Source of the DNA: a virus
Strand: one strand, 5' to 3'
Length of the DNA stretch: 31,104 bases
IMG/VR virus record: IMGVR_UViG_3300035698_035404
Coordinates: 1-31,104 of that record
Made by a program: the position numbers and the translations under genes. The number at the start of each line of letters is the position of its first letter. Position 1 is the stretch's first letter. The notes beneath the pieces are model-generated. The model was not told the DNA's origin. It saw only the letters and a list, made by a program, of their open reading frames with translations, and searched no databases. Shown here in pieces: positions 2,241 through 17,919 of this stretch.

Positions 2241-3011
2241 ATGAGTCTGCTTGAAAACATCCAATCGGGAAAACAGCCGATGCCGCCGCGAATCGAAATT
2301 TACGGTCAGGAGGGAATTGGAAAATCGAGTTGCGCGGCTTCCGCTCCGAACGCCGTTTTTATTCCGACTGAGGACGGTTTAAGCGAAATCGACTGCCGCA
2401 GTTTTCCGCTGGCTAGGAATTACAGCGATGTTGCCGGCGCGTTGACTGCGCTGTATCAAGAGGAACATGAATTCCAGACTGTTGTGATTGATTCTCTCGA
2501 CTGGCTGGAACGGTTGATTTTCGATGAAGTCTGCCGCGAATATGGCGTGCGTTCCATCGAAAAAGCTGATGGCGGTTATGCCCGTGGCTATGTTCATGCT
2601 TTGATCTACTGGCGAAAAGTTTTGAGTATGCTGGAAGTGTTGCGAAACGAAAAAGGCATGGCCTGTGTTTTGATCGCGCACTGCTGTGTGGAGAAATTTG
2701 ACGATCCGGAATCGGCGGCTTATGATCGTTACGCGCCGCGGTTGCACAAACACGCCAACGCGCTGATTTCCGAGTGGGTTGACGCGGTTTTGTTCGCGAC
2801 TCGCCGTTTTCGGACGCAGAAAGAGGATGCCGGGTTCGGGCGCGAACGCACCATCGCCGCGCCGGTCGGAGCCGATGGCGGAGAACGGATTATTCGAACA
2901 GTCGGCGGCCCCGCCTGCGTAGCAAAGAACCGTTTCAATCTGCCTGCGGAACTGCCGTTGTCGTGGGAGGCCTTTATGGCGGCGATGGCAAACGCCGGAG
3001 CGGAAGAATGA
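2241..3011 (+). CDS. Sak4-like RecA-fold ATPase (AAA_24)
   Basis: This 256-residue ATPase resembles the Sak4/AAA_24 group of phage recombination proteins, which cooperate with single-strand binding proteins in strand annealing. Walker A is GQEGIGKSS (22-30), followed by the family-typical PTEDGL and a Walker B TVVIDSLD (80-87). The C-terminal half has a RecA-like strand order with VLIAHC after the sensor region. The ATG at 2241 is preceded by GGGAGGA. The gene is followed by a 3008 ATG overlapping its stop codon (ATGA). Together with the RecE-like nuclease, DUF669 protein and RusA resolvase it makes a complete phage recombination set. Sak4 and other phage RecA-like ATPases are hard to separate without a profile search. 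Confidence 0.75.
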   Translation: MSLLENIQSGKQPMPPRIEIYGQEGIGKSSCAASAPNAVFIPTEDGLSEIDCRSFPLARNYSDVAGALTALYQEEHEFQTVVIDSLDWLERLIFDEVCREYGVRSIEKADGGYARGYVHALIYWRKVLSMLEVLRNEKGMACVLIAHCCVEKFDDPESAAYDRYAPRLHKHANALISEWVDAVLFATRRFRTQKEDAGFGRERTIAAPVGADGGERIIRTVGGPACVAKNRFNLPAELPLSWEAFMAAMANAGAEE

Positions 3012-9941: not shown

Positions 9942-11159
9942 ATGCAAATCGAACAAAGAAACTTCAACGAAATCAGGCCTTATGCAAACAACCCGAGAAT
10001 CAATGACGATGCGGTGGACGCCGTTGTAACCAGTATTCGCGAGTATGGCTTTCGCCAGCCGATTGTGGTGGATGCCGAAGGCGTGATAATTGTCGGTCAC
10101 ACCCGCTGGAAGGCGGCGAAAAAACTGGGACTGGAAACCGTGCCGGTTCATGTCACTACCGATCTTTCCCCGGAAAAAATCAAGGCATATCGAATTGCCG
10201 ACAATAAAACTGGCGAAATCGCGGGATGGGATTATGAATTGCTACCGCTGGAATTGTCCGAGCTCCAGTCAATGGATTTCGATTTGTCATTGCTTGGCTT
10301 CGATACGGACGAACTGGATAGACTCCTTAACGGCGATGATTTGGCTAACGCCGGGCAAACCGACCCGGATGAAGTACCTGAAACACCTGAACAACCCGTC
10401 AGTAAGCGCGGCGAAATCTATCAGCTTGGCAAGCACCGGTTGATGTGTGGAGACGCGACCAGTTCTGTGGATGTTGAGGCGCTTATGTACGGAGAACAGG
10501 CTGATTTGTTACTTGAGGATCCGCCATACAACGTTAATTACGAGGGGGCTACCGCGGATCATCTTACCATCCGGAATGACGATATGCCGGATGGTGAGTT
10601 TCGGGCGTTTCTCACCGCCGCTTTCAAGTGCGGATATGAAGTGATGAAACCGGGTGCGTCATTCTATCTTTTTCACAGCGATACGGAAGGTTATAACTTC
10701 CGCGGGGCATGCCGGGACGCAAGCCTGAAAATCCGGGAATGTCTGGTCTGGGTCAAGGATACGCTGGTGCTTGGCAGGCAACCATATCACTGGCGGCACG
10801 AACCGATTCTTTACGGCTGGAAGGACGGAGCCGCGCACAGTTGGTACTCCGATCGTAAACAGACCACGGTGCTGGAATTTGACCGGCCCAAGAAAAGCGA
10901 CCTGCACCCGACCATGAAAAGTGTGGAAATGTTGATCTATCTGATTAAAAATTCTTCAAAAAGAGATAATCTCGTTGTCGACTTTTTCGGCGGTTCCGGC
11001 AGTACTCTTATTGCCGCCGAGCAGACCGACAGAAAAGCTTACCTGATGGAACTGGACGAAAAATATTGCGATGTCATCCGCAAACGCTGGGCGGAATTCG
11101 TTCACGGCGAAGAATGCGACTGGCAGGCATTAACCCCAGCTGTAAATGAACTCTCATAA
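9942..11159 (+). CDS. ParB-domain DNA methyltransferase fusion (N4/N6 type)
   Basis: This 405-residue protein joins a ParB-like domain to an amino-methyltransferase. Residues 1-~130 contain NPRINDDAVDAVVTSI and VGHTRWKAAKKLG (GHTR at 52-55). From ~155 the methyltransferase has motif IV DPPYNVNY (DPPY 193-196) and, later, motif I DFFGGSGST (347-355). This beta-type order and the DPPY active site indicate adenine-N6 or cytosine-N4 methylation. No restriction enzyme gene is near, so it is likely an orphan modification enzyme protecting phage DNA or marking packaging sites. AGGAGG lies about seven bases before the ATG. Such fusions are common in phages near the terminase. Confidence 0.88.
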   Translation: MQIEQRNFNEIRPYANNPRINDDAVDAVVTSIREYGFRQPIVVDAEGVIIVGHTRWKAAKKLGLETVPVHVTTDLSPEKIKAYRIADNKTGEIAGWDYELLPLELSELQSMDFDLSLLGFDTDELDRLLNGDDLANAGQTDPDEVPETPEQPVSKRGEIYQLGKHRLMCGDATSSVDVEALMYGEQADLLLEDPPYNVNYEGATADHLTIRNDDMPDGEFRAFLTAAFKCGYEVMKPGASFYLFHSDTEGYNFRGACRDASLKIRECLVWVKDTLVLGRQPYHWRHEPILYGWKDGAAHSWYSDRKQTTVLEFDRPKKSDLHPTMKSVEMLIYLIKNSSKRDNLVVDFFGGSGSTLIAAEQTDRKAYLMELDEKYCDVIRKRWAEFVHGEECDWQALTPAVNELS

Positions 11160-14326: not shown

Positions 14327-14926
14327 ATGTCTTCAACTGAAAACGCCATAAAGATAATTCGGAAACAAGGCGGAACTATCCGTACTGCATGCGCAATTAA
14401 ATCCGGAATACATCCACGCACCCTTTATGCTCTTTACGAGGCAGAAAAGGTTGAGAAAGTTTCTCGAGGGGTGTATCGCCTTGCGGCACTTCCGCCGACC
14501 TCTAATCCTGACCTTGAAATTGTCTCCTCGCGAATCCCGAATGGAGTGATATGCCTTATTTCAGCGCTTGCATTTCATGAAATCACTACGCAAATTCCCC
14601 ATGAAGTCAATGTAGCCCTTAAATATGGCTCGGAAACTCCTCGCATTGATTACCCTCCAGTCTCAATACATCGGTTTTCCGGGAAAGCTTTTGAGGGGGG
14701 AATAGAAGAACATAAAATCGATGGAATTGCTGTTCGCGTTTACAGTCCGGAAAAAACCATCGCCGACTGTTTTAAATTCAGAAATAAAATCGGCATGGAC
14801 GTTGTACTGGAAGCTCTGAAAATATATAAAAAAAGAAAGCGGGTCAAAATGGACGAACTGCTTAAATATGCGAAAATAGACCGGATGGAAAAAGTAATGA
14901 CTCCCTACCTTGAGGCCACGCTATGA
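14327..14926 (+). CDS. abiEi: AbiEi-type antitoxin (type IV TA)
   Basis: The 199-residue protein begins with a winged-helix segment, ENAIKIIRKQGGTIRTACAI, followed by SGIHPRTLYALYEAEKVEKV and SRGVYRLA, the AbiEi N-terminal pattern. The C-terminal part (LISALAFHEIT, VYSPEKTIADCFKFRNKI, ALKIYKKRKRV) is the AbiEi_4-like domain that neutralises the toxin. It overlaps the toxin gene by four bases (ATGA). AAGGG lies about ten bases before the ATG, and a promoter with an overlapping inverted repeat lies upstream, consistent with autoregulation. The composition is more A+T-rich than the flanking phage genes, suggesting acquisition as a cassette. Confidence 0.85.
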   Translation: MSSTENAIKIIRKQGGTIRTACAIKSGIHPRTLYALYEAEKVEKVSRGVYRLAALPPTSNPDLEIVSSRIPNGVICLISALAFHEITTQIPHEVNVALKYGSETPRIDYPPVSIHRFSGKAFEGGIEEHKIDGIAVRVYSPEKTIADCFKFRNKIGMDVVLEALKIYKKRKRVKMDELLKYAKIDRMEKVMTPYLEATL

Positions 14927-15831
14927 CCGTAAAAATTGTAAAGAACATGGCGGCATCCGTCAGGCAAAAACTTTTAAATAAAGCAAAAGCGGAAAACCGC
15001 CCGTTTAATGAACTGCTGCAATATTATATGATGGAACGTTTTCTCTATCGTTTAGGCAATTCTCCTTACGCGAATAATTTCATTTTGAAAGGAGGCCTGA
15101 TGCTCCGGGTCTGGAATGCTCCGGAAATTCGTCCCACAATGGACATTGACATGTTGGGGAAAATTGAAAACAGTACGGAAGCAATCATAAAAACGATGAA
15201 AAATATATGCGTCGTGAAAATGGAAATCCCTGACGGAGTTATCTTTGATGCTAAAAATATTACAGCGGAAGACATAACTGAAGACGCTGAATACCTGGGT
15301 GTAAGAATCAGGATTCCTGCCAGACTGGATACCGCGGTTTTGAAAGTTCAACTGGACATAGGTTTTGGCGATACTGTTTATCCCGAACCACAGAAATATT
15401 CAATGCCGGTTTTACTCGACTTGCCGGCTCCGGGGCTTCTCTGCTACAGTAAAGAGAGCAGCATTGCCGAGAAATTCGAAGCTATGATAAAACTTGGGAA
15501 GCTTAACAGCCGGATGAAGGATTTTTATGACATCTGGATGCTTGCAAGTCAATTTGATTTTAATGGCGCGCAATTTCGGGATGCGGTGTCTTGGACTTTT
15601 GAAAAACGCGAGGTTGCTATACCTGAAGAAATAATGGCTTTTTCTCCGGAATTCATAGAAGCCAAAAAGGTTCAATGGAACGCTTTTAGAAGAAAATTAA
15701 GACAAATCCATGTTCCTGAAAACATTGCCGATGTTATATTGGTTATCCAAAAGTTTTTAACTCCTGTCATTGAAAATCTACGCTCTGGTAAAAATATGCC
15801 GCAAAACTGGCATGCAGGTTCTTGGAAATAA
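14923..15831 (+). CDS. abiEii: AbiEii-type nucleotidyltransferase toxin
   Basis: This 302-residue protein is an AbiEii/MenT-like nucleotidyltransferase. The signature FILKGGLMLRVWN (53-65) is followed by RPTMDIDML (70-78), which holds the two metal-binding aspartates, and by the downstream lysine-aspartate motif RMKDFYDIWML near 195. AbiE systems cause abortive infection or slow growth when the antitoxin fails, through nucleotide transfer. On a phage this would most likely exclude competing phages from the lysogen or stabilise it. A factor-independent terminator follows at 15885, so the pair is a self-contained unit. All key residues are present, so it should be active. Confidence 0.87.
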   Translation: MTVKIVKNMAASVRQKLLNKAKAENRPFNELLQYYMMERFLYRLGNSPYANNFILKGGLMLRVWNAPEIRPTMDIDMLGKIENSTEAIIKTMKNICVVKMEIPDGVIFDAKNITAEDITEDAEYLGVRIRIPARLDTAVLKVQLDIGFGDTVYPEPQKYSMPVLLDLPAPGLLCYSKESSIAEKFEAMIKLGKLNSRMKDFYDIWMLASQFDFNGAQFRDAVSWTFEKREVAIPEEIMAFSPEFIEAKKVQWNAFRRKLRQIHVPENIADVILVIQKFLTPVIENLRSGKNMPQNWHAGSWK

Positions 15832-16246: not shown

Positions 16247-16348
16247 ATGCGGAAAGAAAAACAGGTGGACAATTCGCCACTACAGGAAGTCGCTGAAATT
16301 CTTGCCGCCGGCATCATCCGGATGAAAAAGAAGGGGAAACTGAAATGA
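16247..16348 (+). CDS. 33-residue ORF coupled to dcm
   Basis: An ATG at 16247 follows AAAGGAGG at ideal spacing. The peptide begins MRKEKQVDNSPLQEVAEILA, continues AGIIRMKKK and ends at TGA 16346-16348, overlapping the methyltransferase ATG (16345) as ATGA. The PLQEVAEILAAGIIR segment resembles short helices I recall from small phage and recombinase-associated ORFs of the EILAAGIIRL type. The strong ribosome site and translational coupling argue that it is expressed. Function is unknown; it may simply couple translation into dcm. Confidence 0.55.
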   Translation: MRKEKQVDNSPLQEVAEILAAGIIRMKKKGKLK

Positions 16349-17919
16349 TGCGGTACGGAAGCGTGTGCAGCGGCGTTGAAGCCGCGACTTTGGCGTGGAA
16401 GCCATTGGGTTGGCAACCGGCGTTTTTCGCGGAAGTCGAGCCGTTTCCGTGCGCGGTTCTGATGCAGAAATTGGGCGCGACCAAACCGTTGCGCCCGCTT
16501 GTTCCCGCTGAAACTCAAAATGAAAAAGAGAAAAAACAGCGTAAAAACTGGATAACGCAAATCGCCAAGTTCCCTGAAGGCGGTGAGATTCCGAATCTGG
16601 GAGACTTTACAAAGATAGAAGAGGATGATTATGATGGAGAAATCGACCTGCTCGTCGGAGGCTGCCCTTGCCAATCGTATTCTTGCGCGGGGCTTAGAAA
16701 GGGCCTTGACGACCCGCGGGGGGACCTCTCGCTTGAGTTTGCAAAACTGGCTCACAGAATACGTTCATGCTGGGTGGTATATGAAAATGTGCCGGGACTC
16801 GGCAGTCAGAACCATGGAGAAGCCTTCGCTGAAATACTATCAGCTTTGTGCGGATGGAAAGTTGAAGTTCCTGTTCTCAGAAGAAAGAAAAACGGGGACA
16901 TCGTCAGGGGCTGGAAGAATTCCGGCATCGTCACTCCCGCACCGGGATGTTACGGGCTGGCATGGCGAACTCTTGACGCTCAATTTGTGCGAGTGGACGG
17001 ATATCCGCGGGCAGTGCCTCAAAGACGAAGGCGTTTGTTCCTTGTCGGACATCTTGGAAACTGGGAACGTGCCGCGGCGGTACTTCTTGAGCCCGGCTGC
17101 CTGCGAGGGGATACTCCGCCGGAGCGCAAAACGCAAGAGGGAATTGCCCGCAATCTTACGGCAAGCACTGGAGGTGTTAGCGGAAAGGAACAGCAACACA
17201 CCTTCGTAGACGAACACGGCAGGCCACTGAATGCGTTATGTGTCGCCCACGGTCAGGGCAACGCGGAGGTGTGTGAGGGAAAATCCCCGACCTTAAACTG
17301 CAATCACGAAGCGCCCATAGTATACCGCGAATCCGGGCAGGGGTTCTGGCAACAGGATGAAGCTTCCGGCACGGTCAAGGTCAACGGGGTGGAACCGACC
17401 ACGGCCGTGTGTTACGATGCTCGCGGCAACGGTTCCGGCGATATCGCTCCCAACATTACCGGTGACCATGCCTCAAGGCCAAATGATTACATGCCGGTTG
17501 TACTTCAGAGGAAAAGTTACGGGATTTTGGAAAACATCATCAACCGCAAGGAGAAAAACGGCGGCAACGGGCTCGGTATTCAGGAGGAATTGCAGTACAC
17601 GTTGAACACAAGCGCTCCGCACGGCGTGTGCTGTTTCGTTAAGAATGACGCCGCGAAAGACTATTCTGAGAATGTCGCCATGACTTTGCGGAGCCGGGCG
17701 GAACACGCCGTCTCCTATCATTCGACTGTGAGGCGGCTGATGCCAGTCGAAACCGAAAGGTTAATGGGTTTTCCTGACAATCACACCCGGATCGAATGGA
17801 ACGGCAAACCGGCATCCGACTGCCCGGACACCCACCGCTACAAAGCCTGCGGCAATGCGTTCTGCGTAAATCCAGCCAGATGGCTAGGCATGAGAATTCA
17901 AAACTTGGAGGATTTTTAA
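16345..17919 (+). CDS. dcm: C5 cytosine DNA methyltransferase
   Basis: This 524-residue enzyme transfers a methyl group to cytosine C5. Motif I is MRYGSVCSGVEAATLAW and motif IV contains the catalytic cysteine in GGCPCQSYSCAG (PCQ 108-110). ENV (147-149) is motif VI, and AVPQRRRRLFLVGHLG is motif VIII. The target-recognition region follows, and VETERLMGFPDNHTRI with YKACGNAFCVNPARW forms motifs IX-X. An unusual charged insertion (about 52-98) separates motif III from IV. The ATG at 16345 has AAGGGG eight bases upstream. With the ParB-methyltransferase it gives the phage two modification activities and no visible endonuclease, consistent with evasion of host restriction. A second long ORF overlaps it in another frame. 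Confidence 0.9.
   Translation: MMRYGSVCSGVEAATLAWKPLGWQPAFFAEVEPFPCAVLMQKLGATKPLRPLVPAETQNEKEKKQRKNWITQIAKFPEGGEIPNLGDFTKIEEDDYDGEIDLLVGGCPCQSYSCAGLRKGLDDPRGDLSLEFAKLAHRIRSCWVVYENVPGLGSQNHGEAFAEILSALCGWKVEVPVLRRKKNGDIVRGWKNSGIVTPAPGCYGLAWRTLDAQFVRVDGYPRAVPQRRRRLFLVGHLGNWERAAAVLLEPGCLRGDTPPERKTQEGIARNLTASTGGVSGKEQQHTFVDEHGRPLNALCVAHGQGNAEVCEGKSPTLNCNHEAPIVYRESGQGFWQQDEASGTVKVNGVEPTTAVCYDARGNGSGDIAPNITGDHASRPNDYMPVVLQRKSYGILENIINRKEKNGGNGLGIQEELQYTLNTSAPHGVCCFVKNDAAKDYSENVAMTLRSRAEHAVSYHSTVRRLMPVETERLMGFPDNHTRIEWNGKPASDCPDTHRYKACGNAFCVNPARWLGMRIQNLEDF
16631..17209 (+). CDS. Overprinted ORF within dcm
   Basis: In the +1 frame relative to dcm, a 192-codon ORF starts at ATG 16631, six bases after AGAAGAGG; a same-frame ATG at 16625 abuts that site. 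The protein reads MMEKSTCSSEAALANRILAR and includes GWHGELLTLNLCEWTD, then VCSLSDILETGNVPRRYFLS, then ACEGILRRSAKRKRELP. That C-terminal pattern is one I recall as a conserved small phage protein often seen at methyltransferase loci, so it does not look like a random shadow. The dcm frame is also fully conserved across it. I cannot tell whether it is translated; a frame-specific conservation test would decide. Confidence 0.45.
   Translation: MMEKSTCSSEAALANRILARGLERALTTRGGTSRLSLQNWLTEYVHAGWYMKMCRDSAVRTMEKPSLKYYQLCADGKLKFLFSEERKTGTSSGAGRIPASSLPHRDVTGWHGELLTLNLCEWTDIRGQCLKDEGVCSLSDILETGNVPRRYFLSPAACEGILRRSAKRKRELPAILRQALEVLAERNSNTPS

Follow-up and report, generated by a model that had tools for sequence, protein, structure and literature searches.

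Genes nested in a second frame of a phage methyltransferase gene have precedents. McDonnell et al. (2017; PMC5601072) described an 'apparent total overlap' of two predicted C5 methyltransferases, in different frames, in Streptococcus thermophilus phages of the 5093 group, and, as cited in that paper, overlaps have been reported for pneumococcal phage MM1 and the conjugative transposon Tn5252 (Obregon 2003; Sampath & Vijayakumar 1998). Mycobacteriophage methylase genes of the ShiLan type carry an out-of-frame HNH endonuclease, an inserted mobile gene (PMC11855218). We have analysed a viral DNA of 31,104 nt (IMG/VR record IMGVR_UViG_3300035698_035404; hereafter the window) in which the gene for a C5 cytosine DNA methyltransferase (MTase) contains, in its +1 frame, a candidate overlapping gene that we call OV. 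The nested arrangement is that of the 5093-group phages; there, however, the authors regarded the overlap as a curiosity and took each of the two products for an MTase, whereas here the predicted second product represents a separate family. OV resembles the ShiLan type in that a second frame is used within a phage methylase gene, but the ShiLan second ORF is a mobile HNH insertion, whereas OV covers the MTase's own motifs with no insertion. What is new is the recognition of the second frame as a separate, widely conserved family, the precedent being a streptococcal annotation curiosity. In the open-licence literature we found no description of OV as a separate family under selection that spans many phyla and includes P1; older subscription papers may say more. 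The features of the locus are:

16345..17919, + strand: host gene, C5 cytosine DNA methyltransferase, 524 aa, frame 0 (PF00145, E = 9.9e-33; PHROG 116/363/864)
16618..16625, + strand: Shine-Dalgarno-like (SD) GAAGAGGA, 5 nt before the ATG at 16631; read from the sequence, with aligned starts and stronger SD in relatives
16631..17209, + strand: putative overlapping gene OV, 192 aa, +1 frame inside the MTase; N-terminal and middle parts stop-free in 14 relatives, synonymous constraint ending at the OV stop
16631..17019, + strand: OV N-terminal part, weakly conserved and predicted mostly disordered (synonymous observed/expected 1.2-1.7; pLDDT mostly 40-70)
16666-16674, + strand: MTase motif IV, PCQ, frame 0, read from the sequence, inside OV
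16783-16791, + strand: MTase motif VI, ENV, frame 0, read from the sequence, inside OV
17020..17034, + strand: MTase motif VIII, QRRRR, frame 0, read from the sequence, overlapping the start of the OV C-terminal domain
17020..17206, + strand: OV C-terminal conserved domain (SLSDILETGNVPRRYFLSPAACEGILRRSAKRKRELPAILRQALEVL; synonymous observed/expected 2.2-2.7; pLDDT up to 98)

A preliminary description of this DNA had claimed a 192-codon +1 ORF inside a cytosine methyltransferase gene, with motifs of the dcm frame encoded over the same bases. Both parts were confirmed: the host gene has the PF00145 match and motifs IV, VI and VIII of a C5 MTase, all three motifs lie within the OV span, and the ORF runs for 192 codons from the ATG at 16631 (taken mechanically from the first ATG it spans 16625-17209, + strand, 194 aa). 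The first base of each OV codon is MTase codon position 2, the second is the MTase wobble base and the third opens the following MTase codon (position 1), so that conservation of the MTase alone would fix OV bases 1 and 3 and leave base 2 free. Synonymous re-coding of the window MTase gene yields a +1 ORF of OV length with P = 0.003-0.008, and OV is the longest same-strand shadow ORF among 16 compared genes of the window. In our reading the length by itself is modest evidence, and conservation in relatives is what decides.

Such an ORF might be a passive shadow of MTase residue conservation and codon bias, with nothing made from it; OV homologues are indeed confined to MTase frames, and motifs VI-VIII favour part of the OV pattern (e.g. 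GKTSP from WENVPG). Relatives of the locus (L001-L080) were gathered with the MTase protein and not OV as query: the +1 frame matched OV wherever the MTase core was present. In 79 non-redundant, diverse MTase homologues no +1 stop was observed in the OV C-terminal domain, against about 104 expected from synonymous re-coding. The real OV score exceeded all 200 of its own shuffles in 79/79 loci, with profile scores of 58-118 bits where the shuffles averaged about 4-24 and never exceeded 53. Some of the tested loci had contributed to the training of the profile, on which, however, neither the stop counts nor the synonymous-identity and positional tests depend. Stops in the +1 frame of relatives, which the preliminary description had named as evidence against OV, did not materialize: real and expected counts by region within OV in 14 relatives were 0/23, 0/17 and 1/20, the last being the C-terminal part, which leaves none against about 40 expected in the N-terminal and middle parts, while outside OV there were 30 (22 expected) before it and 125 (99 expected) after it. 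Excess +1 identity in the same relatives, taken region by region from before OV to after it, gave z = 5.9, 12.9, 11.6, 51.9 and 5.4, the values of 5-6 outside OV being a baseline from shared descent; the pairs and loci are phylogenetically related, and these z-scores and counts overstate independence.

The proposed check of synonymous change in aligned MTases gave a concordant result, the host gene showing reduced synonymous change over the exact overlap. MTase synonymous codon identity was.77-.82 over 17065-17199 (expected.30-.36), about 0.4 upstream, and.33 (expected.30) directly past the OV stop. Expressed as observed/expected for 22 MTases, it was about 1.0-1.4 upstream of the ORF, 1.2-1.7 over 16615-17019, 2.2-2.7 over 17020-17199 and 1.0-1.3, once 0.8, past the OV stop. 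Substitutions in the second frame also follow a period-3 coding pattern. In the OV core blocks position 2, the MTase wobble base, is the least variable and position 3 the most, with differences of.24/.16/.50 at OV positions 1/2/3 in the CEGILRRS block; identity in the CEGILRRS / GILRR block is.82 for OV and.43 for the MTase, and between the most distant groups compared it is.40 and.18, respectively. The re-coding tests, the end of synonymous constraint at the OV stop, the greater conservation of the OV core than of the MTase, and the positional and regional stop and identity tests all contradict a passive shadow, which we now consider scarcely credible. A constrained nucleic acid (RNA structure, binding site or recombination site) would lower synonymous change too, but would account neither for the codon rhythm in a frame free of stops, nor for amino-acid-level conservation at nucleotide identity down to 45-47%, nor for a hairpin that folds confidently in AlphaFold2 models. 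We regard this reading as very improbable; the codon rhythm led us to reject an RNA or DNA element, and the constraint on the OV core is, on these comparisons, protein-coding.

The selection tests agree with one another and their effect sizes are large, though all ignore phylogeny. Sequence comparison as a whole establishes protein-level selection on the +1 frame and its borders, as well as its confinement to one MTase subfamily, and we conclude that this is very probably a true dual-coding locus, with OV a genuine overlapping gene whose frame is kept open in relatives beyond chance. The earlier claim that one stretch of DNA carries two conserved proteins is thus supported by re-coding, synonymous constraint, codon rhythm and stop counts, with the qualification that conservation of the N-terminal ~110 residues of OV is weak.

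The predicted OV protein is basic (about 21.5 kDa, pI 9.3). AlphaFold2 models of two proteins, the window OV and a P1-type OV, both show a C-terminal helix together with a helical hairpin with pLDDT of 94-98, the remainder being of low confidence; predicted helices span residues 140-146, 157-170 and 176-191, numbered from 16625. The C-terminal pattern noted in the preliminary description (SLSDILETG, YFLSPAACEGILRR) proved real: it forms the core of a family that hundreds of phages and prophages carry. The window OV had no family match in Pfam or NCBIfam, a sequence search of the PDB gave no match, and Foldseek found no structural relative there; sigma-A domain 2 was set aside as a relative, the best VIA-align Z of 3.8 over 44 residues being uninformative for a helical hairpin. 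A search of a viral structure library returned gp104 of Mycobacterium phage Thibault (G1FGG9), which is an OV protein as well, along with a 521-aa record labelled 'methyltransferase'. Gp104, annotated 'hypothetical protein', is the OV domain alone, in shortened form, behind an HNH gene that splits the MTase. At the Thibault locus (L084) the HNH endonuclease ORF, 2369-3004, is inserted in the MTase just ahead of the OV domain and leaves OV as the separately annotated gp104. OV itself was rejected as a ShiLan-type HNH endonuclease, since it has no HNH match in Pfam, PHROGs or NCBIfam and overlies MTase motifs.

The second ORF of the 5093-group overlap, the nested CDS P0092_45 (139 aa), is recognised by the OV profile (E 4.7e-9), and synonymous shuffles fall far short of its +1 ORF. 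The OV versions of S. thermophilus and S. pneumoniae have divergent or missing last helices; L031, L032 and L038 likewise keep the OV ORF without the last helices. PHROG 16143 ('DNA methyltransferase', 139 aa, the same length as P0092_45) has a profile that matches OV proteins: the match to the OV of Lucky2013 is good but partial (E 5.1e-11, positions 57-133 of 139), that to the window OV is weak (0.01 over 24 residues) and that to P1-type OV is also weak. This PHROG carries a methyltransferase label, yet by sequence OV is not a methyltransferase. The window OV has no PF00145 or TIGR00675 match, which led us to reject it as a C5 DNA methyltransferase, and no typical member of the OV family matches PF00145, the two entries that do having MTase sequence fused in frame.

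OV searches by tblastn hit 132 phage records with the window sequence and 147 and 151 with two other seeds, including the dmt genes of P1 and P7 and phages of Vibrio, Caulobacter, Mycobacterium, Streptococcus, Faecalibacterium and Akkermansia. With a profile-derived pattern, viral contigs yielded at least 597 relatives and bacterial genomes at least 581, and 530 plasmids also had relatives; a scan of viral contigs with the single window OV protein gave no match, its search patterns having fallen in the variable part. P1 dmt DNA is present in 493/5426 complete Escherichia coli genomes, mostly on P1-like plasmids. The bacteria whose phages, prophages and P1-like plasmids carry OV include Proteobacteria, Firmicutes, Actinobacteria, Nitrospirota and Chloroflexi, among others. 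Where the MTases are only 26-30% identical the OV C-terminus is still 38-46% identical.

The phage tblastn matches overlap MTase genes or unannotated sequence. An open MTase frame covers OV in 157/159 and 87/87 loci, the remaining two being cut by contig ends, and no stand-alone OV copy occurred among these 159 + 87 loci. The suggested search for homologues outside dcm therefore found none beyond this MTase subfamily. It had been argued that homologues arising only as unconstrained shadows of dcm would speak against OV; they are indeed confined in this way, yet they are constrained, because over the core conservation is greater in the +1 frame than in the MTase frame. A PF00145 search of nine bacterial genomes separated the MTases into two clear classes, one that has OV (about 100-114 bits) and one of canonical enzymes that lack it (e.g. 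L259-L262, L268 and L270). At a few loci, selected by OV, the MTase frame is broken by a stop or frameshift while OV is intact (L236, L223, L252, L202, L215, L134 and L105), which is suggestive of an independent value of OV; recent decay or assembly error is also possible. Because the MTase fold is far older than OV, which is absent from ordinary C5 MTases, the most likely origin of OV is overprinting in the ancestor of a single phage/prophage MTase subfamily, after which it would have been retained.

As to how OV would be translated, the start at 16631 is better supported than that at 16625, because the SD lies 5 nt upstream and the corresponding codon is the start in relatives (L001 and L003, AAGGAGGATTATG; L027, AGGGAGGATTATG; L071, AGGAGACAAATATCGTG). 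Loci of the window's group have AAGGAGGATT-ATG or similar at the OV start, and L034-L060 have AAGGAGA followed by an ATG 42 codons ahead of the OV domain; in P1-type loci the methionine of MPNTSEW was rejected as the start, since that position alternates between Met and Thr. Group means of SD energy were -6.3 and -7.8 kcal/mol, against -3.6 and -3.4 kcal/mol after re-coding, an advantage that is explained in part by MTase residues. Two groups have a strong initiation signal; it is weak in the window and in many loci of the P1 type. The spaced ribosome site claimed for OV is present in the window, but its strength is no better than that of synonymous re-coding (P = 0.58). Ribosomes would translate the MTase from 16345, and a second, independent internal initiation at 16631, using the SD and ATG, would yield OV in the +1 frame; such separate translation is the leading route, and a likely one. 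OV could instead result when ribosomes shift or slip into the +1 frame while translating the MTase, the product being an MTase N-terminal half fused to an OV tail, as suggested by Faecalibacterium phage Toutatis and L105, where the N-part of the MTase is permanently in frame with OV, and by poly-G tracts that set the frame in two otherwise near-identical Faecalibacterium phages (9 vs 14 G) or directly follow OV (G10 in L202). At most loci, however, in-frame stops lie upstream of OV, near a conserved start codon with an SD; non-systematic inspection noticed no conserved slippery sequence; and the OV of Thibault is a small ORF of its own behind the HNH gene. We therefore think frameshifting an unlikely source of OV and retain internal initiation.

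The poly-G tracts are of interest in themselves. Toutatis and Lelie (L086 and L171) share a long identical stretch over a permuted, split MTase and differ there only in the poly-G at about 2975-2990, the length of which determines the frame, that of OV or a third one, into which the N-part of the MTase runs; this may represent a phase-variable phage MTase or a homopolymer assembly error. In L202 (position 3761) the MTase frame is broken at the poly-G10 just past OV, and the OV frame continues into the MTase C-terminal part.

P1-like plasmids offer a natural experiment on selection for OV. The dmt alleles of P1 and pO111_2 are near-identical to about nt 722, inside OV, and unalignable at the DNA level beyond it. 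Over the 60 nt past this exchange point (47% nucleotide identity) OV is open and 40% identical and the MTase is 15% identical. P1-type alleles (L168 vs L082) swap the region past motif VIII, and some have an extra ~1 kb near nt 234. These differences are consistent with swapping of target-recognition modules. P1 dmt was non-essential in a CRISPRi screen (PMC10695390), and OV is therefore not needed for plaques on that laboratory host.

In the window, an AbiEi/AbiEii toxin-antitoxin pair (14327-14926 and 14923-15831; PADLOC E 6e-77 and 6.5e-94) sits between the terminase and MTase genes, ahead of the portal gene. A 33-codon ORF (16247-16348) with a strong AAAGGAGG site may be translationally coupled to the MTase, because its TGA overlaps the MTase start (ATGA). 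A second MTase (9942-11159) combines a ParB-like N-terminal domain with an N6/N4 DNA methylase.

Our working proposal, which we put forward tentatively and at somewhat less than even confidence, is that OV is an accessory protein acting with its own MTase: it would bind the enzyme or its DNA via the basic helical hairpin and tune methylation of incoming phage DNA. Such a role fits because OV was never found without the MTase and is dispensable in P1 on a laboratory host. Small basic phage proteins are often inhibitors, and OV might instead be independent of methylation, for example a counter-defence or host-takeover protein merely carried on the MTase gene. OV is phage-specific, lies beside AbiE genes in the window and is dispensable in P1 (PMC10695390), as an independent role would allow; but it never occurs apart from this MTase subfamily and has no PADLOC, Pfam or NCBIfam match, the PADLOC search having offered no model for it as a known anti-phage defence protein, and we consider an independent role rather doubtful. 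The accessory proposal in its fullest form, to which we attach an equally guarded degree of belief, is that a hidden accessory protein in the second frame of the whole phage C5 MTase subfamily, including P1 Dmt, works with the enzyme and imposes much of the conservation past motif VIII, so that an exchanged target-recognition region would have to bring a matching OV tail with it.

Phages are known to have nested same-strand genes, most of them lineage-specific, whereas OV recurs across many phyla, has a core that is more strongly conserved than its host enzyme gene, and is almost always missed by standard gene callers. Since it is present in P1, a phage with complete genetics, it is directly testable there. 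Mutant phenotypes assigned to such MTases may include the loss of OV, and the conservation just past motif VIII should not be attributed solely to the function of the enzyme.
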